Positions 7,405 through 19,678 are shown, counted from the first letter of the stretch. The stretch is DNA of 51,284 nt from an uncultured Pseudomonadota bacterium (GCA_903920205.1 CAIXLI010000057.1:1-51284); one strand, 5' to 3'. A program made the numbers and translations. Notes: a model not told the origin generated them from the letters alone.

Positions 7405-10080
7405 GTGGCAAACTTCCTTTTCCTCATGCTGAGTCGTTTTCGCCGAGTCGCGTGGGGCGTAGCTTTGCTCGCCGTCTTGCCAGGGCTCGCCCTCGCCGAC
7501 GTTTTCGTCACGACGGCGCCGGAAAAAGACCAAATGGCCGTCTTGTTCTTCGGTCTTTTGATCGGCGTCGTTTTATCGGCCGCCGCTTATCTGTTCTTCA
7601 TCTGGGTCGTTATGCGCGATCGCGGACAGGTCTTTTTGATCATCTTTCTTTTTTGCATATGTGTGAACATATTCAGCACCAGCGAATTACTGATGAACAA
7701 GATTGGGATTTACGACCCGTTGGGGCGCGAATTTATTACTAATCTTAGCTTTATCGCTTCGTGGATATTCGCACTGTTCTTCACCTATTACTTTCTCGAA
7801 CTCGACATCAACAGCCCCGCCTACAAAATCCCTTTTATTATCATCGGCATCCTGCTGATGCTCATCCTGATTTACTCGGTGATTGACCACACGTTGATCT
7901 ATCTCGTGATGTCCGTGATCGGGACGATTACTATGTCTACCATCATCATCGCGGGTCTTTCGGGCGTTCGCAACGGCACAAGCGGAAGCGTGGTCCATAT
8001 TGTCGCCTTCCTGTGTTCCTTGGGCGGCATTCTCGCGGAGCCAGCCTATATCCTTGGTTTTCTGAAAACGATGGCTGAGGTGCATAACACCACCAATATT
8101 TCTTTTGCCCTTTCCGCCATGATGTTCGCCATCGTCATCGCCGGTCAGTTCGCCGCGCGGCAGGACGAAAAAGAAAAAGCACTGGCGATCAGCAATGAGC
8201 GGTTCGCGCTGGCAACGCGGGGCGCCAACGAAGGGCTGTTCGATTGGAATTTGCTAACGGGCGAGATTTTCTTTTCCGACCAATTCCGCAAGATCCTCGG
8301 CGTCCGCATCGTCAACGGCGCTGACGGGCTAAAACGATGGGTCAGAATGATACAGCCCCCTTATCGTCGGCTTGTGACCGATACCGTCCGCCGCTTCCGC
8401 CGTAACGCCAAGGCCAATACGCTAAACGTCGAATACTGCATCGAACAGATGAACGGAGAGCGACGGTGGCTGCACTCCAAAGCCGTCGCTGTGCGCGACA
8501 GGACGACCCAAAAGGTCATGCGCTTGGTCGGGTCAACCAGCGACATTACCGAGCGCAAGAAGGGCGAATTTGCCTTGCTCGCCAGCGAGGCGCGTTTTCG
8601 CAGCATTATCGAAGCCCATCCCGTGCCTGTTCTGATCGTTAGTCTTGGCACCAACGCGATTTTCTATGCGACTCCCGGGGCCGAACAGCTTCTCGGCATG
8701 AAACACGAAGATATGCAAAAAGAGTTTCTTGAGCGCTTTCTCCCCGATCCGCCGACACGCTTGCGTATCTTGAAGGCTATCGTTTTAGACAAGCCCGTAG
8801 ATTTAATGGAGGCGGAATTCATTCGTGGCGACGGAGTCGCCATCGCGGCGGCGGTTTCCGCGCGGCGCATCACCTATCAAGACGAAGACGCGATGGTCAT
8901 GGGGATTTACGATTTGACCGAGCGCAAGAAAGCCGAGACGCAAATCGCTCAACAGCAAGAGGCCCTGCAGCAAAGCGAAAAAATGGCAGCGCTCGGCGGA
9001 TTGCTGGCGGGCGTGGCTCATGAGTTGAACAATCCTTTGTCGGTTGTCGTCGGTCAGGCGACCCTGTTAATGGAGGGAGCGCCCGAAGCCAAGGTTGCTT
9101 CACGCGCCGAGAAAATCTTTAAAGCCGCCGACCGTTGCTCAAGAATTGTCAAAAGTTTCCTCGCCCTTGCGCGGCGCAAACCGCCAGAGCGCAAACAGGT
9201 CGATCTCAATCAAATCATTCGTTCTTCGCTGGAATTGCTTGGCTATCAGCTAAAAACCAACGAGATCGATATTCAGTCGTCGCTTGACCCTCACGTTAGC
9301 AACATTATCGGCGACGAGGATCAATTGACTCAGGTGGTCACTAACCTGATTCTAAACGCCGCGCAGGCTTTGGATGGGTGGAAGGGGCTGCATCGCATCA
9401 CGGTATCAAGCGGCAGCGATGCCAACGGCGCTGTTTTGTTAAGCGTTGCCGATACGGGGCCGGGCGTTCCGCCGGATATCCGCTTGCGCGTGTTCGAGCC
9501 GTTTTTTACGACCAAAAGCGGCAAGGGGGGGACGGGGGTCGGGCTTGCTCTGTGTCTTAATATCGTTGCGGCGCATGGCGGCGAATTGTCGTTAAGCGAT
9601 ACGGAAGGGGGAGGGGCTACGTTTACCGCCAGATTCCCGTTCTCGGAACAGGTTCTTTCGGACAAGGACGCAGAGAAGGACGTGGATTCCGGCGTGATTG
9701 CGCCGCTCAATTTATTGCTGGTTGATGACGAAGTCGAACTGGCCCAGACTCTTGCCGACTTGCTGGAACCAGAAGGGCACTCCATTGATATCGCTATCAA
9801 CGGGGCCATAGCGATGGATAAGCTTCGCAAACGTAAGTTCGATGCGATTATCAGCGATTTGCGCATGCCGGTTATGGACGGCCCCGCCCTTTATGACGCA
9901 CTGCAACGCGAGTTGCCTTCGTATCTAAACAGGATTATTTATGTGACAGGAGATACTCTATCCTCTCATGTTCAGGATTTCCTGAACAGCCATGTCGTTC
10001 CTGTTGTTGAAAAGCCTTATCGTCTCAAGGATATTCGTCGCGCCTTGAGCGAGTTATTGAAAAATGCGGCTAACAAGTGA
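7405..10080 (+). CDS. Hybrid sensor histidine kinase (membrane-PAS-PAS-HisKA-HATPase-REC)
   Basis: An inner-membrane sensor of 891 residues. It begins with a probable signal peptide or first helix ending in LALAD, then about seven hydrophobic helices (roughly 45-250) of the 7TMR type. Two PAS domains follow (about 265-385 and 395-515), then HisKA with the phospho-acceptor H539 in GVAHELNNP, an HATPase domain (GTGVGLALCLNIV), and a C-terminal receiver with acceptor D818. The GTG at 7405 is used; an ATG at 7426 is an alternative. Three bases separate it from the REC-EAL gene, its likely phosphorelay partner. The signal sensed is unknown. Confidence 0.9.
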   Translation: MANFLFLMLSRFRRVAWGVALLAVLPGLALADVFVTTAPEKDQMAVLFFGLLIGVVLSAAAYLFFIWVVMRDRGQVFLIIFLFCICVNIFSTSELLMNKIGIYDPLGREFITNLSFIASWIFALFFTYYFLELDINSPAYKIPFIIIGILLMLILIYSVIDHTLIYLVMSVIGTITMSTIIIAGLSGVRNGTSGSVVHIVAFLCSLGGILAEPAYILGFLKTMAEVHNTTNISFALSAMMFAIVIAGQFAARQDEKEKALAISNERFALATRGANEGLFDWNLLTGEIFFSDQFRKILGVRIVNGADGLKRWVRMIQPPYRRLVTDTVRRFRRNAKANTLNVEYCIEQMNGERRWLHSKAVAVRDRTTQKVMRLVGSTSDITERKKGEFALLASEARFRSIIEAHPVPVLIVSLGTNAIFYATPGAEQLLGMKHEDMQKEFLERFLPDPPTRLRILKAIVLDKPVDLMEAEFIRGDGVAIAAAVSARRITYQDEDAMVMGIYDLTERKKAETQIAQQQEALQQSEKMAALGGLLAGVAHELNNPLSVVVGQATLLMEGAPEAKVASRAEKIFKAADRCSRIVKSFLALARRKPPERKQVDLNQIIRSSLELLGYQLKTNEIDIQSSLDPHVSNIIGDEDQLTQVVTNLILNAAQALDGWKGLHRITVSSGSDANGAVLLSVADTGPGVPPDIRLRVFEPFFTTKSGKGGTGVGLALCLNIVAAHGGELSLSDTEGGGATFTARFPFSEQVLSDKDAEKDVDSGVIAPLNLLLVDDEVELAQTLADLLEPEGHSIDIAINGAIAMDKLRKRKFDAIISDLRMPVMDGPALYDALQRELPSYLNRIIYVTGDTLSSHVQDFLNSHVVPVVEKPYRLKDIRRALSELLKNAANK

Positions 10081-10083
10081 CGA

Positions 10084-11244
10084 ATGGATGGCGACATGCG
10101 TTTGCTGATTATCGACGACGAAGAAGATATCTGCGATTTGATCGCCGAAGTTGGTACTCGGCGCGGCCTTGATGCGCGCTCGACCTGTAACGCGGAAGCG
10201 GTGCAGCAAATTTTGACTGACTTCACGCCGGATGTCATCATGATGGACTTGATGATGCCCGGCATTGATGGCGTCGAGCTTCTGCGTCTGCTGTCCGAAA
10301 AAGCAAAAAACGCCAAATTGTGCCTGATTAGCGGAAGCGATACGCGCGTTCTGAACAGTGCGCGCCGTTTGGGTAGCGCGCACGGTCTCGATGTCGTTGC
10401 TGCGCTGGAAAAGCCGCTTGGCATCCAGACGCTTAACGGTTTTTTCGACTCGGTAATCTTGAGCGGTAAGGCGGATGGGGCCGAGGCGCGTGCGCAGGCC
10501 ATCGCGTCGGGGGAAATCAAACTTTATTATCAGCCGGTCATCGATCTCGCCTCGCGCCGCGTAAAGGGCGTTGAGGCTTTAGCGCGGTGGCTGCATCCGG
10601 AGCGTGGCGTTCTTTTGCCCGACGAGTTTTTGGAACAGATCACCAGCGACGGCTTGATGCAGGCCTTGACCGATCTCGTCATCAAGACCGCGGTTCAGCA
10701 AGCCTCCGTTTGGCATCAGGGGGGAGAGAGGCTGACCGTATCTATGAATGTGACGGCATCCACGCTTCTTGATCTTGCCCTTCCGGACAAAATAGCGGAA
10801 ATGTGCAAGCAGCAGTCCTTGCCGCAGGAAATGTTGATTCTCGAAGTTACGGAAACTGAGGCCATGCGCGACGTCACGCGCACGATGGATGTTTTGTTGC
10901 GTATGCGTCTTCGCAACATCGGCGTTTCAATCGACGATTTCGGAACGGGTCATTCTTCGCTGCGCGAGCTTCAGCGCATGCCCTTCAGCGAATTGAAGAT
11001 CGACAAAAGCTTCGTCACCGATATGGCGAATAGCAAAGATTGCGCGGTCATCGTGAATTCGATCATCGATCTGGGACACAATCTCGGTCTAAAAGTGATC
11101 GCTGAAGGCATTGAAGATCAGCGCGCTTGGGACATGCTGCGCGAAAAGGGGTGTGACTTTGGGCAGGGGTTCTTTATGGGGCGCCCGATGGCGGCATCAG
11201 ATTTCAGCCTGTGGCTCGAAAACTGGAATAAAAACAAAGGCTGA
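10084..11244 (+). CDS. Response regulator with EAL c-di-GMP phosphodiesterase domain
   Basis: Residues 5-120 are a receiver domain with the DDEED pocket (11-15), phospho-acceptor D55 and the K of EKP at 110. Residues 135-385 are an EAL domain that keeps the catalytic set: EAL at 164-166, EVTE, DDFGTG, the Lys of KIDKSF, AEGIE and the Gln of FGQGFFMGRP. It should hydrolyse c-di-GMP to pGpG when switched by phosphorylation. It follows the hybrid kinase by three bases and so is its likely target. An ATG at 10096 is an alternative start. It faces the pilin gene tail to tail. Confidence 0.92.
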   Translation: MDGDMRLLIIDDEEDICDLIAEVGTRRGLDARSTCNAEAVQQILTDFTPDVIMMDLMMPGIDGVELLRLLSEKAKNAKLCLISGSDTRVLNSARRLGSAHGLDVVAALEKPLGIQTLNGFFDSVILSGKADGAEARAQAIASGEIKLYYQPVIDLASRRVKGVEALARWLHPERGVLLPDEFLEQITSDGLMQALTDLVIKTAVQQASVWHQGGERLTVSMNVTASTLLDLALPDKIAEMCKQQSLPQEMLILEVTETEAMRDVTRTMDVLLRMRLRNIGVSIDDFGTGHSSLRELQRMPFSELKIDKSFVTDMANSKDCAVIVNSIIDLGHNLGLKVIAEGIEDQRAWDMLREKGCDFGQGFFMGRPMAASDFSLWLENWNKNKG

Positions 11245-11271
11245 CCGCTGATCATGAAGACCAGCGGTCAG
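11227..11271 (-). terminator. Terminator hairpin between EAL gene and pilin operon
   Basis: CTGACCGCTG (11241-11250) pairs perfectly with CAGCGGTCAG (11262-11271). Read on the minus strand the stem is followed by a T-rich tract (CCTTTGTTTTTATT), so it most likely ends the pilus-like operon. The stem overlaps the stop codon of the EAL gene and could also help end that transcript, although no U-run follows on the plus strand. Confidence 0.6.
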
Positions 11272-11279
11272 GGTAGCCC

Positions 11280-11972
11280 TTACTGAACGGCAAGAACTTG
11301 ATAGTAGAAATACTGCGATGTCGGGCCAGCGGTACAGGCGGGGCATCCCGAGCCAAGAGGGGCATCGGTGTTGAGTACGCATCCCGTCGCAACGCCGACT
11401 AAGTTCGGGGTCGTGGGCCAGTTGGCGCTGCCGGTAACAGTATTCGCTAGGAAGTTGCCCATTTGCTCCGTTGTAGGCAGTGTCGCCGCGCCTAATACCC
11501 TATTATTGATTTCCTGACATACGCCAGCCGACACGGGCAAAACAGCGAGCACATTGTTATTCGACCCGCCAGTGCCAAAACCTTTGACCAGACCCTGAGG
11601 GAAGTACCATTTGTCGTATTTTGGATTGTTGGCCATGCCAACCGATGGTGGGGCAATGCCACCGCCTATCGGAGAAAACAGTGCGTTGCTTAACGCTGTG
11701 TTGCCTGTCGCTGTATCGACAGCGGTTGGAATAAGCCCGCCTTCCATAGTTATGCGGTCCATACCGATTTTCAGGTTTTCACCGATCTGAACCAAGGCCG
11801 ATGATTTCGTCTTATCGCTTTCGGTTGCCGTGCCACCGGTAAAGCTGCCGCTGCCTGCTGCGATCGCGGCGGCGAGAATGGCGAGAATGGCGATGATAAA
11901 AAGGATTGGTCCAATCGCAATACCTGCGTTCGAGCTTAGCCGCCCGTCCTTCGCCTGAAACACAGTCATCAT
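11280..11972 (-). CDS. Pilin-like protein of the type IVb pilus/T2SS-like operon
   Basis: A 230-residue protein with a short polar N-terminus, one long hydrophobic helix (about residues 18-42, rich in Ile, Leu and Ala) and a Gly/Ala/Thr-rich exported domain with four Cys near the C-terminus (two in a CPAC context). This is the layout of a type IV pilin or pseudopilin. The usual Gly|Phe/Met with Glu at +5 is not obvious: the region reads SSNAGIAIGPILF with no Glu in the helix. GGAG sits five bases before the first ATG and eight before the second (11969). It is separated from the platform genes by 126 bases, so it may have its own promoter, as major pilins often do. Confidence 0.6.
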   Translation of the reverse strand: MMTVFQAKDGRLSSNAGIAIGPILFIIAILAILAAAIAAGSGSFTGGTATESDKTKSSALVQIGENLKIGMDRITMEGGLIPTAVDTATGNTALSNALFSPIGGGIAPPSVGMANNPKYDKWYFPQGLVKGFGTGGSNNNVLAVLPVSAGVCQEINNRVLGAATLPTTEQMGNFLANTVTGSANWPTTPNLVGVATGCVLNTDAPLGSGCPACTAGPTSQYFYYQVLAVQ

Positions 11973-12098
11973 TATATCTCCATTAACAGAGTTAAGCTTC
12001 GTATCATTGATCGCACGATTCGCCCTATGGAACCTTTTTCCGCCTCTAAAGTCAAGGGCAAGATCGCTATCGCAAGCCCAGCGACATAACGATTCGCT

Positions 12099-12605
12099 CT
12101 AATGCTGTGGCAAAGAAAACACCATTTTCTGTCCCGTCACCGTGGCCTTCATCAGCGTTTGTCCCCCGCAGGCTCCTACGCAAAAATCGCGGAGCGTCCA
12201 GTGAAATTGAGGCGCCATTGTATCGATATAGCTAAGCGCCGTAATCCATTGATGGAACTTTGCGCCGTCATCGCTTTTGATGGAGAGGGCCTGCGCCGCT
12301 CCGGCCTCAATCTTGATGTCAGGAAATTGGTGCTGAAGTCGATCAGAAATAAGCTGAAGCTCGCGTGGGCCTATGGGCGTGTTTGTCGATACTGGCAACA
12401 CGGGCTCGGCAGAAATGGCTTCTGCCGCCGCGTTTTTCGAAGAAACGGCGCCATGAACGGCGAAAACAGCCAGAATTAAGGTCACAAGAGCCGCCAGCCA
12501 ACACGCGCTGATAACGATGGCGGTGGATTTATCAAGGCTAGCGAGCGCCCTCGCCATCAGCCGCGGAGAAAAAGCTTGGATCAAAGGTTTGGCGTCTAGG
12601 GGCAT
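12099..12605 (-). CDS. PilO/GspM-like inner-membrane platform protein
   Basis: A 168-residue bitopic protein. The short cytoplasmic N-terminus is followed by one membrane helix (about 29-52) and a periplasmic domain with a small alpha/beta pattern, as in GspM/PilO ring proteins. Sequence similarity to these families is weak by eye; topology, size and position after the GspL-like gene carry the call. It overlaps the upstream gene by one base (TAATG type), which implies coupled translation. In such machines the GspL/GspM pair links the ATPase and platform to the periplasmic part. Confidence 0.5.
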   Translation of the reverse strand: MPLDAKPLIQAFSPRLMARALASLDKSTAIVISACWLAALVTLILAVFAVHGAVSSKNAAAEAISAEPVLPVSTNTPIGPRELQLISDRLQHQFPDIKIEAGAAQALSIKSDDGAKFHQWITALSYIDTMAPQFHWTLRDFCVGACGGQTLMKATVTGQKMVFSLPQH

Positions 12606-13660
12606 TATCGCTTCTCCTTGCTCGCTTCGTATTCGATCTCGGCATCATTGCCGATCACCACCCCCTGATCGTTCGATTCGATGTTCTTGCCTCCCATGGC
12701 AGAAATGCGATCAGCCGTAGCGCTGGGCGGCACGATGGCGCGCCATCGTGTCGTCTGTTCCTTGATGTCGTAGACGGTGAGAAAACCGTTGAGCGACAAC
12801 AGACCATCGTTGACGTTCAGAAATTTCGAGATTTGCTCTCGCAACGGGCTGGAACGTAAGCCCTCCGCGTTACGCAAAAGCGTCATCGTCTTGACTTGGG
12901 TGTGCTCAAGCGCGGAGGCAAGGTCGTGCCGCGCCGCGATCATCGCCATGCTTGCCGACAACCAGACAAGAAACGACATGCCGACAATCAGCAGGGACGC
13001 GAGCACAGAAACTGTCGACAGAATGCGACGTGCGCGATCTTCAAACAACGAGGCCGAATACCAAGGCACGGGGGTCATCTGCCCGATGCGGAACAAATCG
13101 ACATTGATGGTGCGGGCCTTGTCGCCCAACTCGCGCACGGTGCGCTCCGCCTTGGCTCTGACGACGGCGGCTGTGCCGCGGAAGATATGAAGCTCTTCCA
13201 CCGTCACGACCATCAGAACGGCCATTTCTTCGCCGAAATAGGTATAACATAGGGGAAGGTTTTCTGCGTCCCTCGCCGTCGGCAACAGGGCCGCCAAAGG
13301 ACACCATGAATTGATATGCGAGGCGAGATCTGCCGATCTTACCGCTAGATACCAGATGCAATTTCCGAACGATTGCCAGACGACATGAACGCGTTCGCTG
13401 TCGCAGGCTTCCGCTGCGGCGTTCCAGACGATTTCCTCTTCCTTGCCGGCAACGCGGGGACAGATGCCGCCGATAAGATCGGGCGGGAAGTAGAATTCCC
13501 CAATATCGCCGACAGGCCCCGTCAGGGCTTGGAGCAGGGATGAGGACGATTCGGAAGCGATGTCGCCGGACGCAGATTGGGCGCTGCCGACTTCCTCTTT
13601 CCGGCCTAGCGATTGCCTGAATGTGTGGCTCGCTTTCTTGATGTGTTCGCCGATGCCCAT
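12605..13660 (-). CDS. GspL/PilL-like inner-membrane protein of the pilus operon
   Basis: A 351-residue protein with a soluble N-terminal part of about 220 residues containing several Cys and Trp, one strong membrane helix at about 225-250 (STVSVLASLLIVGMSFLVW), and a periplasmic C-terminus of about 100 residues with a coiled segment. The plan of cytoplasmic domain, single helix and periplasmic domain resembles GspL or the PilO2-type proteins of type IVb pili. I do not recognise the N-terminal domain with certainty. It lies two bases after the GspF-like gene and overlaps the GspM-like gene. Confidence 0.5.
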   Translation of the reverse strand: MGIGEHIKKASHTFRQSLGRKEEVGSAQSASGDIASESSSSLLQALTGPVGDIGEFYFPPDLIGGICPRVAGKEEEIVWNAAAEACDSERVHVVWQSFGNCIWYLAVRSADLASHINSWCPLAALLPTARDAENLPLCYTYFGEEMAVLMVVTVEELHIFRGTAAVVRAKAERTVRELGDKARTINVDLFRIGQMTPVPWYSASLFEDRARRILSTVSVLASLLIVGMSFLVWLSASMAMIAARHDLASALEHTQVKTMTLLRNAEGLRSSPLREQISKFLNVNDGLLSLNGFLTVYDIKEQTTRWRAIVPPSATADRISAMGGKNIESNDQGVVIGNDAEIEYEASKEKR

Positions 13661-13662
13661 GT

Positions 13663-14880
13663 TTATGACCGCAGCCCTTTGAGACTATCGAGGAAGCTTT
13701 GATTCTGAACCATCAACAGATAGACCATCATCAAAACCGTGGCGCCCGCCAGAGTCATCATCATGATGATGCCGAGAATGGCCAACCGCCTCTGATCCGA
13801 CTTTGCCATAAGTCCACGCTCTTCGGCAATCGCCGCGTAGACCTCCGCCAATTGATCGACGGACTGAATGGTCATGATCTGATCTCGCTCGCCCTTCATT
13901 AGGGGCCATCGCGACAGGGCGCGGGAAGGGTCGACGCCCGCCATAATGCGGCTTTTGCTTTCCGACCAATAAAGGCGGCAGGAGGGCTCATTCACGCTTT
14001 CGATAATGATGTCGAGCGCGTCGGCCAAAGGCACTTTGCCGTTTAACAGGCGCTGCATCAGCTTGCTGCTTTCCTTCATGCTGATATTACGCAGATAGGA
14101 AGACATAATCGGCGCTTTCATCAGTATTTTGGACGTATAGTGATCCGGTTTTTGCCGGTTAAACCAATAAAGCGCGACAAAAATTGCGCCTCCGACGATC
14201 AGCGAGGTAATCACGACCAGCAGGGTCATGTTAACCCATGTCGCAAGTGTGATCGCGTGATTGAACCGATCAACCGACTCAGCATCGGTCGTTTTCGTGC
14301 CTTGGCTTTTCAAATAGGGAATAAAACCGAATTGAGCGCCCCAAATCGTGCCGACGATATTGACGATGTCGAACGACAGCCAGCTAAGCGCCGTAAGGAT
14401 GATTTTTGTTTGTTTGCCTTTTTCCTCGGTATGTTCGATGGCGTGCTGAATAACGCCTTTCAAATCGCCCGCGCGTTCGCCTGCCGTAATGATCGCCATT
14501 GTCGCCGCATCGAGAAGCCGCAGGGCGCGCAAGGCTTCCGAAAAAGAACCGCCACCTTTCAACACCGTGCGCGTTGGCAAAAAAGCCAACCGTCGCTTGG
14601 CGTCGCTTTCGCCTTCGATAATGTTCAAAAGCGCCGTGCCGGCGGAAGCGGTAGCGCCCTGAAAACGCAAGGCGCGCAAGAGCTGAATTTGCCAGGCACG
14701 CGAACGAACATCGGCCCATTCAAAAAGGGCCGGCTTCTGTTCGTTGATCGTTATGGGATAGAAGCCGTTATTGCGCAATTGGCGACGCACAGCGTGCTGG
14801 TCGGGAAGATAAAAATCTTCTTCCATGACATTGACCGCGCCTTGTCGCATTTGGGCGTATTTGGCGTGAAAAAGCTTCAT
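13663..14880 (-). CDS. GspF/PilR-type inner-membrane assembly platform protein
   Basis: The 405-residue protein has two copies of the T2SS-F fold, the first around 60-170 with the GERAGDLKGVI segment and the second around 280-370, each followed by membrane helices (about 175-195, 220-245 and 375-397). GspF proteins connect the assembly ATPase to the growing pilus or pseudopilus. It begins six bases after the ATPase gene, the standard pairing in type II secretion, type IV pilus and R64 pilQ-pilR systems. Confidence 0.8.
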   Translation of the reverse strand: MKLFHAKYAQMRQGAVNVMEEDFYLPDQHAVRRQLRNNGFYPITINEQKPALFEWADVRSRAWQIQLLRALRFQGATASAGTALLNIIEGESDAKRRLAFLPTRTVLKGGGSFSEALRALRLLDAATMAIITAGERAGDLKGVIQHAIEHTEEKGKQTKIILTALSWLSFDIVNIVGTIWGAQFGFIPYLKSQGTKTTDAESVDRFNHAITLATWVNMTLLVVITSLIVGGAIFVALYWFNRQKPDHYTSKILMKAPIMSSYLRNISMKESSKLMQRLLNGKVPLADALDIIIESVNEPSCRLYWSESKSRIMAGVDPSRALSRWPLMKGERDQIMTIQSVDQLAEVYAAIAEERGLMAKSDQRRLAILGIIMMMTLAGATVLMMVYLLMVQNQSFLDSLKGLRS

Positions 14881-14886
14881 GCTTTT

Positions 14887-16635
14887 CTACCCTCTGCCGT
14901 GCGTCGTCGAGGCCGCTTCTTCAATCAGCATCGCCGCGCCCATATTGGCGTCGATGGCGTTGCGTCGGATCAGATCCACGATCGATTGTCGCCGCGGCAT
15001 ATAAATGGTGCCTGGCACATCGACGATCGAAGACGAAACGTTGGACACCATCATTTCCGTAATCGCACGGCGGCTTGCCTGATCTTCGGGCGGGAACATC
15101 GCTTCCAAAGCCAAAGTACGGCCCAGAAATCCGCTATGCCCACAAAGATCACATCCTTCGCCGTGCGCCAGCGCCAAAGGCGCGTCCGGCGCTATGCCTA
15201 TTTCTCCGCACCGTTCGACGCTGTCGAAAACCACCGAGGCTCTGGCGATTTCGTGGCAGGCGGGGCAAACCGTTTTGACAAGGCGTTGGGAAAGGCTGGC
15301 GACCAGCGCGTGACCCAAGATGTAGAGACCGCTTGTGCGGTAGGCGGAGCTGAGAAAGCCGTCGATACGATCCAGCGTGTGCAAGGCATCGACCGAGTGG
15401 ACGGTCGTGATGACGATATGTCCCGATTCGGTCGCGCGTAGCGCCGCTTCGACCGTATCGCCGTCGCGCATTTCGCCGACGATGATGACGTCGGGATCGT
15501 GCCGCATCAGGGCGCGGATAATATCGGCGATGGAATTAGTAGAATTATCCGTCACGGAGGTTTGATCGACCAGCGGCATGTCGTATTCGACAGGCGCTTC
15601 GACCGAATACACGGCGCGAGAGGCGCGGTCGATATCCTGAATAATCCCGTAAAGCGTGGTTGATTTTCCCGAACCTGTCGGGCCGCTAACGACGATCAGT
15701 CCGCCGTCCTTGGTATGACCATGGATGGCTTTGCGCACACGGTCGGCGACGACCGGCGCGTGTAAAAACAGTTCATCGAAGGTGCGTAAGTTTTCTCGAT
15801 CAAGCAAACGAAGGGTTAGTTTTTCGCCCGCAGGCGCCACCGGCAAGGCGGCGCAGCGAACGTCGATCATGCGTCCTTGCCATTCGAATGCCAAACGCCC
15901 GTCTTGCGGATGCTGGCGGTCTGCCGCGTCCATCTTGGCGTCGGTTTTGATGCGGGTGACAATCGGCGCCATGACGCGATGCGGCACCAGATGTTTATAC
16001 ACAAGATCGCCGTCGACGCGGTAACGGATCCAGCACCGCGCGTCTTCTTCCTTTAATGACAAATGGATATCCGACGTGCGGCTTTGCAAGGCTTCGGCCA
16101 GAATATCGTGCACGGCTTGTTCAACCAGCATCGCGTCGTCGGGGTCGCGCGCCAGTCCGGCCAGAATACGCAACAAACGGTCGCCCGCCATCTCGCTTTG
16201 TTCGCGCATCAGGCGCGCCAGCTCCGCGCGGTCCCACGGTTCGATTTCGACACTTTCGACCTTGTGGTCGGCGCGCGCCAGCGATTGGGAAATGTGCAAC
16301 AGATCAGCGTCATCGACGCGGTCGCCGACCGCGATACGCAAAACACCTTGACGCAACTCCAGCAAGCACAGCCCCATCGCCGCTTGCGTGGCCGACGGCA
16401 CATAAAGGCGCAAAGCCTGCATCGTCATGTCTTCGTTGCCGCCGCTCTTGCTTTTTGCCGCATCGCGTGAGCCGGAGGCGAAGCCGTTACGATACAAAAT
16501 TTCGTCGATCGACATCAATCGACCGTTCGCGCGGCGCATCGCTTGTTCGGCTAGGGCAAGTTCATAATGTTTTGGTTTGATATGGAGCGCTTCGGCTTGG
16601 GCGCGCAGGGAGTCAACGGGGGCGGGATCGCTCAT
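14887..16635 (-). CDS. GspE/PilQ-type pilus assembly ATPase
   Basis: A 582-residue secretion ATPase. The C-terminal motor has Walker A GPTGSGKSTT (about residue 325), the Asp box, Walker B with DVIIVGEMRD, and the His box HIVITTVH. A four-cysteine zinc site is present (CPAC about 455 and CDLC about 490). The N-terminal 150 residues form an MshEN-like or linker region. It powers polymerisation of the pilin from the cytoplasmic side of the inner membrane. It overlaps the preceding gene by ATGA and is followed by the GspF gene. Confidence 0.9.
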   Translation of the reverse strand: MSDPAPVDSLRAQAEALHIKPKHYELALAEQAMRRANGRLMSIDEILYRNGFASGSRDAAKSKSGGNEDMTMQALRLYVPSATQAAMGLCLLELRQGVLRIAVGDRVDDADLLHISQSLARADHKVESVEIEPWDRAELARLMREQSEMAGDRLLRILAGLARDPDDAMLVEQAVHDILAEALQSRTSDIHLSLKEEDARCWIRYRVDGDLVYKHLVPHRVMAPIVTRIKTDAKMDAADRQHPQDGRLAFEWQGRMIDVRCAALPVAPAGEKLTLRLLDRENLRTFDELFLHAPVVADRVRKAIHGHTKDGGLIVVSGPTGSGKSTTLYGIIQDIDRASRAVYSVEAPVEYDMPLVDQTSVTDNSTNSIADIIRALMRHDPDVIIVGEMRDGDTVEAALRATESGHIVITTVHSVDALHTLDRIDGFLSSAYRTSGLYILGHALVASLSQRLVKTVCPACHEIARASVVFDSVERCGEIGIAPDAPLALAHGEGCDLCGHSGFLGRTLALEAMFPPEDQASRRAITEMMVSNVSSSIVDVPGTIYMPRRQSIVDLIRRNAIDANMGAAMLIEEAASTTHGRG

Positions 16636-17939
16636 TTCTTAAGGCCCCCGCCGGGCGCTGAAGCGTTTTTCTGTTGCGCCGCCTCTTCTTGCTGCGCTTC
16701 CTCGGTCGCTTTGGCAACCAGCGAAGAAGCAGCTTCAAGCGGTATCGTTCTTTTCTTGCCGCCAATAATGATATCGGCGGAACGTGTACCGACAGAGGCC
16801 AGTTTAGCCGTTCCGCTCCGTACTTCGATTTCGTTACCTATAGCGACAACCGACGTCTCGCCGCTCGGCAACAGAAAAAGGGCACGGTCGCCGATCGTGC
16901 CGATCAGATGCAGGTCACCGTCGCCGCTGCTGCCCGAGGACGAACCGCGCCGCCCGCTGCCCGACCCTGAACCGCCGCTTAAGACGGCTTCGGAAATGGG
17001 CGCTATTCTGCTTGCGACTTCTTTTTCTATATCTTGGGGGGAGGGGGGCAGGGGGATGGCTCCTTTTCTGTCCTTGTCTTTATCCACCGTTTTTGATCCT
17101 TCAAAACCGCCCGAAGCAGCGCCTTTGGCCTCTCCGCGTACGGGGATGACGGCGAATCCGAGCTTGCCGCTATGGCGAATGATAAGGTCGGTGGAAATCG
17201 GCCCTCCCGCTTTCGGAACCCACAGGAGAGTCACGGGGCACGACGCGCCCGGTGCGAGTTCCATATCGACGGCGCAGCCTTGTTCAAGCCGTTGCAGTCC
17301 GTTATCAGCCTCGATCACGTCGATGGCGAAAATTGTAATAGGTTCTGCGCTATCGTTGACCATAAGCGTTGAACGCACAATTTTACCGCTGCCGACCTCC
17401 ACCGCGCCGAATTCGACTGGCTTAATTTCCTTGGCGTTGACAGCAAGCCCCGTGCTTTTGCTTTCGCTTGCACTATTGCCCGACGTTTTTCCGGTCAGCC
17501 GCGCACGCGTGATGCGTCCCGCTCCATTATGCGTCATCAGCACATCGACGCTCCACGCACCCGCGCTTGTCGGCGTGACAGAAATTTCAACGCTGCAGCG
17601 GCTTAATGGCCCGATGCTGCCTTGTTTAACACAATCGTTGGCTGTCGCTTCGGCTGCGACATCGGAGTCGCTGTTAAGGGTGACCTTTTCGATCTTGACC
17701 GCCATATTGGTCTGGTTGACAAAGAAAATAGAAATGCGCTTGGCGACATTGGCCGTCGTTTCGCCGACCTCGATTTCCGCCTTGGGATCGACTCTGATCG
17801 CTTCTTCGCTGATGCCTCCGGACGAAGAAGACCCAGGATTCAGAAAAGCGGCGTCACGCGCCAGAACTGCGCTTACATGGCTCACGCTTACTAGAGCCGC
17901 GAGGCTCAACACCCGCAATAGGGGGAGAGGACGGTTCAC
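16632..17939 (-). CDS. Periplasmic protein with Ig-like repeats and a PilP/GspC-like C-terminus
   Basis: A 435-residue exported protein with a signal peptide (about 1-28). Two Ig-like beta domains of the choice-of-anchor/ASPM type follow (about 55-160 and 170-275): both have the FFVNQT or VNDSAEP start and the C-x-V and PTSAG/PKAGG turns. A Pro-, Gly- and Ser-rich linker leads to a small C-terminal beta domain (about 345-395, LIGTIGDRALFLLPSGE and VVAIGNEI) that resembles the PilP/GspC homology domain. Such domains bind the secretin and tie it to the inner membrane. It overlaps the secretin and ATPase genes by ATGA at both ends. The combination is unusual to me. Confidence 0.6.
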   Translation of the reverse strand: MNRPLPLLRVLSLAALVSVSHVSAVLARDAAFLNPGSSSSGGISEEAIRVDPKAEIEVGETTANVAKRISIFFVNQTNMAVKIEKVTLNSDSDVAAEATANDCVKQGSIGPLSRCSVEISVTPTSAGAWSVDVLMTHNGAGRITRARLTGKTSGNSASESKSTGLAVNAKEIKPVEFGAVEVGSGKIVRSTLMVNDSAEPITIFAIDVIEADNGLQRLEQGCAVDMELAPGASCPVTLLWVPKAGGPISTDLIIRHSGKLGFAVIPVRGEAKGAASGGFEGSKTVDKDKDRKGAIPLPPSPQDIEKEVASRIAPISEAVLSGGSGSGSGRRGSSSGSSGDGDLHLIGTIGDRALFLLPSGETSVVAIGNEIEVRSGTAKLASVGTRSADIIIGGKKRTIPLEAASSLVAKATEEAQQEEAAQQKNASAPGGGLKK

Positions 17940-19678
17940 AAATTACCCCCTTCCGAGGAAAGAGAGCCGGGAGGCTTCAAGAGCTGGTCGAAGGCATGCG
18001 AGAAGCCGCGCTGCATCAACTTCTTATCGACTGGTGCGCTGTCATCGCCGGGCGCAATCGGCGTATTCTGCATTGAAGACGCGCGAAGATCGGTCTGCAT
18101 AAGTTCCGACGCAGGCGCGGAGGTGACCGCGATGACCGGTTGGGGTTGCGGCAAAACAAAAGGCCGCGATCCGTCTTTGTCGATGACGACGGCGTTGGGC
18201 AAAGGCTTGGCTGTTTCCTTCTTTTTAGCTTCCTCAGCCTCGGATTTGTCCGAAAACAAGACGATCGAGGGTTTGACGATCATGACAAGTTCGTGATTGT
18301 TGCGCTGCTCGTCGCCGAACAGGGGGATCGAGCTGTCGCTGCTCACAGGCAATCCCTGGCTGGCCCCCGTATCGCTGGAAGACACCAATCCTGCAAGAAC
18401 CAGACTGTCGCCCGGACGTACGCGCAACGCAGTATTCATTTTTTCGTCCGTCGTTTGCGGCAAATCGATTGTGCCGCCGCCGCTGTTCGTCGGGTTAAGG
18501 CTGACAAGGTTTTTCAGCGACAGATCAAGGTTGGCAAACACCACGCCGTTCTCGTAACTGCCTACGACACTAATGGTCAGACCGGTATCGATGCTGTCGG
18601 TGCTGACCGTGTTGGTGCTGGAATTGCCGGCGGTGCCGCTGGTGGTGCCGCTGACGTTGCTGGTCGTTAAGGTGCCCACCTGTGAGATATAACGCTGGGT
18701 GCCGCCGACTTTGAGCTGCGCCGTCGAGCCTGACACAAAGGTGATTTGCGGGTTGCTGATCGTCTGGACGCGTCCCTTGGTGGCGAGGAAAGAGGCAACG
18801 GCGTTAGCCGAGATAATGCCCGAGGTTACCGCGCCAAGGCTGACGCTTCCCGCCGTCGTTGCCGCAGAGGTCAGGTTGTTCTTGAGGTTAAGGTTGTTGA
18901 TAAGCGTGGAGTTGCTAAGCGCTGTCCAGTTAATACCCTGCGAGTTTTCCCGGGTCAGCGTCACTTCCCAAATATACATCTGCAAAACGATCAAGGGACG
19001 CCCCGTGCGCAATTCTGCCAGATATTGCGAAACGCGGTCTTCGGCTTCGACGGTGGCGGTATAAACGATATTCCCGCCTTGGTCGTCGACCGTGGCTTTT
19101 TCTCCGCCAAGCAGCTCGTTAATAGCCTCGACCATACTGTTTGTGCTGCCAGAAGAGGCGGAACCCGACGAACTGCTGCTGATCGCGCGTACGACGGGGG
19201 GCAGGCTGACGACGAAGGTTTCTTTGTCCGACAACTCGATCGAACCGTGATGATAATTACAAAAAACTTTGGCGGCGGCGCAGACTTTTTCGACCACTTT
19301 GGGCAAAGGTCCGCTCAGATTCATGACGGTGACAAGCCTTGTGCCAAACGTCCCCGTATTCCACGACAATGACACGTCGGTTCCGGAAAGAACCGCTTGC
19401 AGCGCGGCGGTAATCGGCACCGCGTTCAGATTTGTGGTCGGGATAAGGATGTTGCCGGGCAGTTCGTCTGCCGCTCTCAGGCGATGCTCGTGTAAGCCGG
19501 ATTTGAGGTCGAGCGTCACGATGGCGGGATCGGCGTCGCCACGGACGGTTTCGTCTTGGTTGGGTACCTCGGCAAGGGTCGGGTCGCGTCCCGCGGCGGA
19601 TTTTGCAAGAGGGACATCGGAGGCCGAACACGCGGCAAGGCCCAGCGCAAAAGCCAAGGCGACCATCCATTGCTTCAT
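17936..19678 (-). CDS. Outer-membrane lipoprotein secretin (PilN/BfpB-like)
   Basis: A 580-residue secretin that forms the outer-membrane gate of the machine. It starts with a lipoprotein signal and lipobox LAAC (about residues 15-18). An STN/N0-like domain follows (about 70-175), then a Ser-rich linker, an N1-like domain (about 195-260), and the secretin core (about 310-500) with VQTISNPQITFVSG, VRPGDSLVLAGLV and HELVMIVKP. Being a lipoprotein matches type IVb pilus secretins. The start at 19678 gives a proper signal; an upstream extension of 15 residues does not. It is the first gene of the seven-gene minus-strand cluster. Confidence 0.88.
   Translation of the reverse strand: MKQWMVALAFALGLAACSASDVPLAKSAAGRDPTLAEVPNQDETVRGDADPAIVTLDLKSGLHEHRLRAADELPGNILIPTTNLNAVPITAALQAVLSGTDVSLSWNTGTFGTRLVTVMNLSGPLPKVVEKVCAAAKVFCNYHHGSIELSDKETFVVSLPPVVRAISSSSSGSASSGSTNSMVEAINELLGGEKATVDDQGGNIVYTATVEAEDRVSQYLAELRTGRPLIVLQMYIWEVTLTRENSQGINWTALSNSTLINNLNLKNNLTSAATTAGSVSLGAVTSGIISANAVASFLATKGRVQTISNPQITFVSGSTAQLKVGGTQRYISQVGTLTTSNVSGTTSGTAGNSSTNTVSTDSIDTGLTISVVGSYENGVVFANLDLSLKNLVSLNPTNSGGGTIDLPQTTDEKMNTALRVRPGDSLVLAGLVSSSDTGASQGLPVSSDSSIPLFGDEQRNNHELVMIVKPSIVLFSDKSEAEEAKKKETAKPLPNAVVIDKDGSRPFVLPQPQPVIAVTSAPASELMQTDLRASSMQNTPIAPGDDSAPVDKKLMQRGFSHAFDQLLKPPGSLSSEGGNL

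Follow-up and report, generated by a model that had tools for sequence, protein, structure and literature searches.

The seven genes at positions 11280-19678, on the minus strand of a 51,284-nucleotide stretch of DNA from an uncultured Pseudomonadota bacterium (GCA_903920205.1, CAIXLI010000057.1:1-51284; hereafter the window), constitute, with a probability that we put at about 0.7, the assembly core of a type IV filament machine. It is separate from the six bacterial kinds that a review counts (PMC10191384), probably makes an extracellular pilus and is most likely closest to the type IVb pili (T4bP). All seven open reading frames, here A to G, lie where the original prediction, made from the window's sequence, had placed them (Table 1), and its description of an operon whose genes overlap or nearly touch holds: A and B, and likewise B and C, overlap by 4 nt, C and D are spaced by 6 nt and D and E by 2 nt, E and F overlap by 1 nt, and only F and the pilin gene G are set apart, by 126 nt.

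The secretin, GspE-type ATPase and GspF-type platform named in that prediction are borne out by their Pfam matches (Table 1), and the Walker A and tetracysteine motifs occur in all 21 homologues of C, as in extension ATPases. Screening the seven proteins against known family sets, the check that had been proposed, yields poor scores throughout: the best NCBIfam model for A is MshL (104.3 bits against a cut-off of 250.2), C reaches 249.8 bits for GspE (cut-off 630.25), 222.8 for PilB (675.65) and 43.8 for a TadA-family model (373), D reaches 50 bits for GspF (424), and E, F and pilin G match no Pfam or NCBIfam family, so that the cluster fits no standard locus cleanly, as had been anticipated. 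The nearest PDB sequences to C are GspE and PilB. The expected Ig-plus-PilP-like architecture of B stands for its Ig domains, the only type matched in Pfam and NCBIfam, and is weakly supported for its PilP-like part (best single profile pair, the PilP of its own genome, at 11% probability); relatives carry short Ig-less homologues at B's position. For F, which belongs to a conserved family, no Pfam, NCBIfam or PDB match was found. Comparing the profiles of B, E, F and pilin G with individual proteins of R64, the bundle-forming pilus (BFP) and the E. coli Gsp system likewise gave nothing convincing.

Phylogenies of the ATPase and the platform set the cluster apart from a small reference set consisting of three T4bP, two type II secretion systems (T2SS), two type IVa pili (T4aP) and five mannose-sensitive haemagglutinin (MSHA) systems, without Com. 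In both trees the window's cluster and its relatives form one clade, X (support 100/100), which lies outside the T2SS, T4aP, MSHA and T4bP references, while a hidden Markov model of the window's platform gives E <= 1e-65 for members of X and E >= 1e-15 for all reference systems. Grouping X with MSHA is rejected by the platform (p 0.011) and not by the ATPase (p 0.166).

The pilins fall into two classes, one encoded by G within the cluster and one at a satellite locus outside it. When both are anchored on their conserved motif, the cleavage site itself being predicted, position +5 carries Pro, Leu, Thr, Tyr, Ala, Met, Val or Ser in every one of the 60 pilins counted; none has Glu at this position (Glu5), and no Glu occurs anywhere from +1 to +21 in either class. 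Glu5 is present in R64 PilS, BfpA, GspG-J, PpdD and BfpI-K, and GspK lacks it. Type IV pilins often, not always, carry Glu5, and its salt bridge to the N-terminus is thought to drive docking (PMC10191384); the subunits studied here must therefore dock by contacts other than that bridge. A structure model of pilin G (predicted local distance difference test score, pLDDT, 83.5) matches type IV pilins first, namely PilA1 (Z 6.8) and TcpA (Z 5.7), followed by PilA. Its sequence profile has no real relative in the PDB, and pairing its N-terminus with the GspG profile gives an unconvincing probability of 13%.

The second pilin class was first seen in distant clusters. In the window's genome, at about 6845-7444 of contig C47, the second pilin begins SAGIAIGPILF, as does pilin G, and lies 3 bp before a 175-residue A24 prepilin peptidase with a GxGD motif. 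Contrary to what had been supposed, the gene set is not minimal, because this satellite locus supplies a further pilin type and a small peptidase. Matches to the second-pilin profile occur in 31 of 32 genomes and are true second pilins in 30, the match in G027 being that genome's type-1 pilin. Small peptidase and second pilin are adjacent in 20 genomes of the window's order (counted from coordinates, with some loci read directly); the two are grouped with the cluster in G132 and in three genomes of family f138; and cluster, second pilin and small peptidase are all absent together from G011 (99% complete). The predicted lack of a prepilin peptidase, a retraction ATPase and further pilins is accordingly true of the cluster and not of the genome, which encodes three A24 peptidases, one of them adjoining the second pilin. 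A 130-residue protein with PF06750 only, the N-terminal domain of prepilin peptidases without the catalytic half, is encoded at 1411-1803 of contig C152 (L001), directly upstream of a trmFO-like gene. Tandem PilT/PilU-like ATPases that score below the PilT cut-off are widespread in the order; those of the window's genome (C149:3339-5335, L133) lie among housekeeping genes, and in G014 such a pair (L058, 6149-8267) directly follows the cluster's pilin. We do not assign these pairs to the cluster; they also occur in G011.

Protein E was detected in 28 of the 33 genomes of the order. Among the five negatives, genes A-C of G001 stand at a contig end; in G005, A and the beginning of B precede a stretch that reads N, where an apparent ORF of more than 22,000 residues is an artefact; and G012 (63% complete) and G021 (80% complete) each have a pilin match, so that only G011 appears to be without the system. 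The suggested comparison of synteny among relatives reveals conservation across the order: of 19 further loci, 14 carry the complete set of seven in the same arrangement and three are truncated at contig ends, while the remaining two have, respectively, a broken pilin and no adjacent pilin. The occurrence of E and the constant gene order in the loci read argue that the cluster is not a product of chance. Its ATPase and platform trees follow the families of the order, and retention mostly by vertical descent is the simplest account.

Contrary to what had been proposed, the machine is not confined to one lineage. The E profile found relatives in nine genomes of the class outside the order (385 searched) and, in a phylum-wide sample of 398 genomes, matched solely two members of the window's own family. 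In f138 a peptidase, a response regulator and two pilins surround the cluster, and in families f121, f22 and f35 it adjoins or is interleaved with type IV secretion system (T4SS) genes. In G150 the homologues lie between VirB8/VirB9 and VirB10/VirB11/VirD4, with VirB2, VirB3, VirB4, VirB6 and a small peptidase nearby, and G051 is arranged similarly. The cluster and both pilin classes also occur on plasmids of two betaproteobacteria, Rhodoferax ferrireducens T118 and Methylibium petroleiphilum PM1, both typed as conjugative. Beyond the order, a few alphaproteobacterial families and these two plasmids, the cluster is rare. In the literature on Micavibrio and on PRTRC plasmids we found no description of it.

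Several details of these loci may be recorded here. Pilus genes of this kind interleaved with VirB2-B11/VirD4 are seen at G150:C34:4001-24000 (L130), G150:C34:22001-41999 (L184) and G051:C240 (L071); these loci include a PilT-like ATPase and a small prepilin peptidase, and their VirB10 bears an N-terminal Ig-like domain of the same kind as in protein B. On the Rhodoferax plasmid (NC_007901.1, 154857-176590, L169) the cluster adjoins a PRTRC gene cassette and has two secretin genes, and a peptidylprolyl isomerase gene separates F from the pilins.

Protein E allows a structural comparison with known machines. The top match of its model (pLDDT 80.5) is PilO2Bp, in its cytoplasmic domain (Z 10.8, 146 residues, 3.4 Å), and the next is BfpC (Z 8.6, 135 residues, 3.9 Å), two proteins that have a common fold at 6.7% sequence identity (PMC3984277); FtsA, EpsL, PulL and PilM follow at Z 5-7. 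The E profile has no real sequence relative in the PDB. Of the GspL-like and GspM-like proteins originally proposed, the former is recovered in E through its modelled fold, and F keeps its assignment by position and topology alone. The type IVb-like character suggested at the outset finds support in E's fold and in the platform tree, which joins X with T4bP against the rest (98/98). The cluster might accordingly be a deep, fast-diverged T4bP member in which the missing PF06864 match and the missing Glu5 reflect divergence only; the ATPase does not reject the grouping (p 0.38), and T4bP likewise reside on conjugative plasmids (R64). We regard this as somewhat unlikely. The three T4bP references form their own clade outside X (99/99 and 99/97), Glu5 is kept in both R64 PilS and BfpA, and the gene order is unlike that of R64 and BFP. 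E has no PF06864 match at E<=1, and this is not a failure of the model, because the R64-like PilO2 of the window's own genome scores 2.3e-30. With few references, several long branches and sister-group tests chosen after the trees had been seen, the closeness of X to T4bP should be taken as a lead and not as an established result.

The PilO2 just mentioned lies in an R64-like type IVb locus on contig C98, together with a TraI lipoprotein (PF16932, 1.8e-73), and a Tad locus is found on contig C99. Since the genome has these two loci besides, the window's cluster is a third, distinct machine. The C98 locus (L072) also holds a DotB/PilT-like ATPase, a secretin, an ATPase and a platform, and secretin/ATPase pairs like this one recur in most of the order's genomes.

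A second alternative takes the filament for a conjugation pilus, either a mating pilus or a stabiliser of mating pairs, that became chromosomal in the order after capture from a mobile element. The placement of the homologues amid VirB/VirD4 genes in G150 and G051 and the two conjugative plasmids speak for it. Within the order, however, no T4SS gene is seen adjoining the cluster, the ATPase and platform trees track the order's families, no other plasmid among 72,556 matched E, and the genome has its own I-type (TraI/PilO2) locus, all of which make this origin unlikely. A divergent T2SS, in which a short periplasmic pseudopilus pushes folded proteins through the secretin, is quite improbable: GspE is indeed the top-scoring NCBIfam model and PDB sequence for the ATPase, E resembles GspL too (Z 6.5 to the EpsL/PulL cytoplasmic domain and, for its periplasmic part, Z 5.7 to the PulL C-terminal domain) and the pilins share the lack of Glu5 with GspK, but the approximately unbiased (AU) test rejects X with the two T2SS references (p 0.021 for the ATPase, 0.034 for the platform), an additional ATPase/secretin locus of T2SS appearance is present in many of the order's genomes (e.g. 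G003:C4), the cluster has no GspG-type pseudopilin bearing Glu5, and its relatives sit within conjugation loci.

Several observations weigh against a separate pilus machine. A short protein-secreting pseudopilus would need the same genes; the pilin model stays below Z 8, where values alone are not decisive, and no pilin family matches its sequence; B and F are assigned their roles by position and topology. As for the satellite, G027 (97% complete) has the cluster and no detected satellite, second pilin and small peptidase are apart in about ten genomes, and the two other A24 peptidases of the window's genome could process the pilins.

On our preferred reading of a separate pilus machine, pilin G and the satellite's second pilin would enter the inner membrane, and the small peptidase encoded beside the second pilin would cleave both on the C-terminal side of the Gly in AG|IAIG. 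The hexameric ATPase C would drive platform D, which would add pilins at the base of the filament, while E and F would make up an inner-membrane assembly complex with the actin-like domain of E facing the ATPase. B would connect the inner membrane with A, the lipoprotein secretin that would serve as the filament's exit from the cell. A role in attachment or cell-to-cell contact would fit the links to conjugation and the EAL/kinase pair that neighbours the cluster in close relatives.

More tentatively, and taking its parts jointly, we propose that the cluster represents a seventh kind of bacterial type IV filament, marked by a distinct gene set, two pilin classes and wholly Glu5-less pilins, which would use a docking chemistry other than the Glu5-N-terminus bridge and would have been joined more than once to VirB/VirD4 conjugation machinery. 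With an order-wide machine in which every pilin found is without Glu5, the Glu5 docking rule can be put to a direct test. The machine further represents a lineage near T4bP in the Alphaproteobacteria, where a reference survey named none (PMC6668835), and some of its relatives have their pilus genes interleaved with those of a conjugation system.

Beyond the pilin stop codon the operon is closed by a terminator-like hairpin, and two genes converge on it (Table 1). The REC-EAL gene adjoins the cluster in four related loci (L052, L053, L054, L059).

Table 1 Genes of the cluster and adjoining features, in coordinates of the window
Feature	Position	Strand	Evidence
Gene A, secretin lipoprotein (outer membrane)	17936..19678	-	PF00263 4.9e-17; LAAC lipobox
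Gene B, signal peptide, two ASH-type Ig domains, low-complexity linker, putative C-terminal PilP/GspC-like domain	16632..17939	-	PF15780 9.3e-09
Gene C, GspE/PilB-type assembly ATPase with Walker A and tetracysteine motif	14887..16635	-	PF00437 4.9e-80
Gene D, GspF/PilC-type inner-membrane platform	13663..14880	-	PF00482 7.6e-13, two stretches
Gene E, bitopic, cytoplasmic actin-like domain, transmembrane helix, periplasmic ferredoxin-like domain (PilO2/BfpC/GspL type)	12605..13660	-	Structure model
Gene F, small bitopic inner-membrane protein, putatively GspM/PilO-like	12099..12605	-	Position and topology alone
Gene G, type-1 pilin-like, predicted cleavage AG|IAIGPILF, Pro at +5	11280..11972	-	Alignment, structure model
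Terminator-like hairpin, 13 pairs, T-rich tail	11241..11271	-	Directly after pilin stop
REC-EAL protein, convergent, possibly regulatory	10084..11244	+	Pfam
7TM-PAS hybrid histidine kinase, convergent, paired with EAL gene	7405..10080	+	Pfam, neighbourhood

The overall composition of the machine is that of the type IV filament superfamily, with ATPase, platform, secretin, a class III signal pilin (recognised by fold and N-terminal pattern) and a genome-encoded prepilin peptidase. Similarly to the type IVb systems (R64 thin pilus PilL-V, BFP), it combines a lipoprotein secretin, a GspE-type ATPase, one platform, a PilP-like protein and a bitopic actin-like protein of the PilO2/BfpC fold in one compact operon, occurs on conjugative plasmids and has T4bP as its neighbour in the platform tree. 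In contrast to them, its E has no PF06864 match, its pilins are without Glu5, its B carries Ig domains, its genes run in the order secretin-PilP-ATPase-platform-E-F-pilin, the cluster lacks a lytic transglycosylase, PilL and PilV, and the peptidase sits in the satellite locus. With the T2SS (GspC-O) it shares secretin, ATPase, platform and a GspL-like plus GspM-like pair, the ATPase sequence being nearest to GspE, whereas the sister grouping is rejected by the AU test, a Glu5 pseudopilin set is missing and NCBIfam scores stay far under the cut-offs. MSHA provides the secretin's top score, to MshL, and an ATPase similar to MshE, yet that score lies well under its cut-off, the platform tree rejects the grouping and the gene set differs. 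Tad (type IVc pili) belongs to the same superfamily, and the small peptidase without the A24 N-terminal domain recalls it; unlike Tad, the machine has no Flp pilin and uses a single platform protein with two T2SSF stretches in place of two half-size ones.

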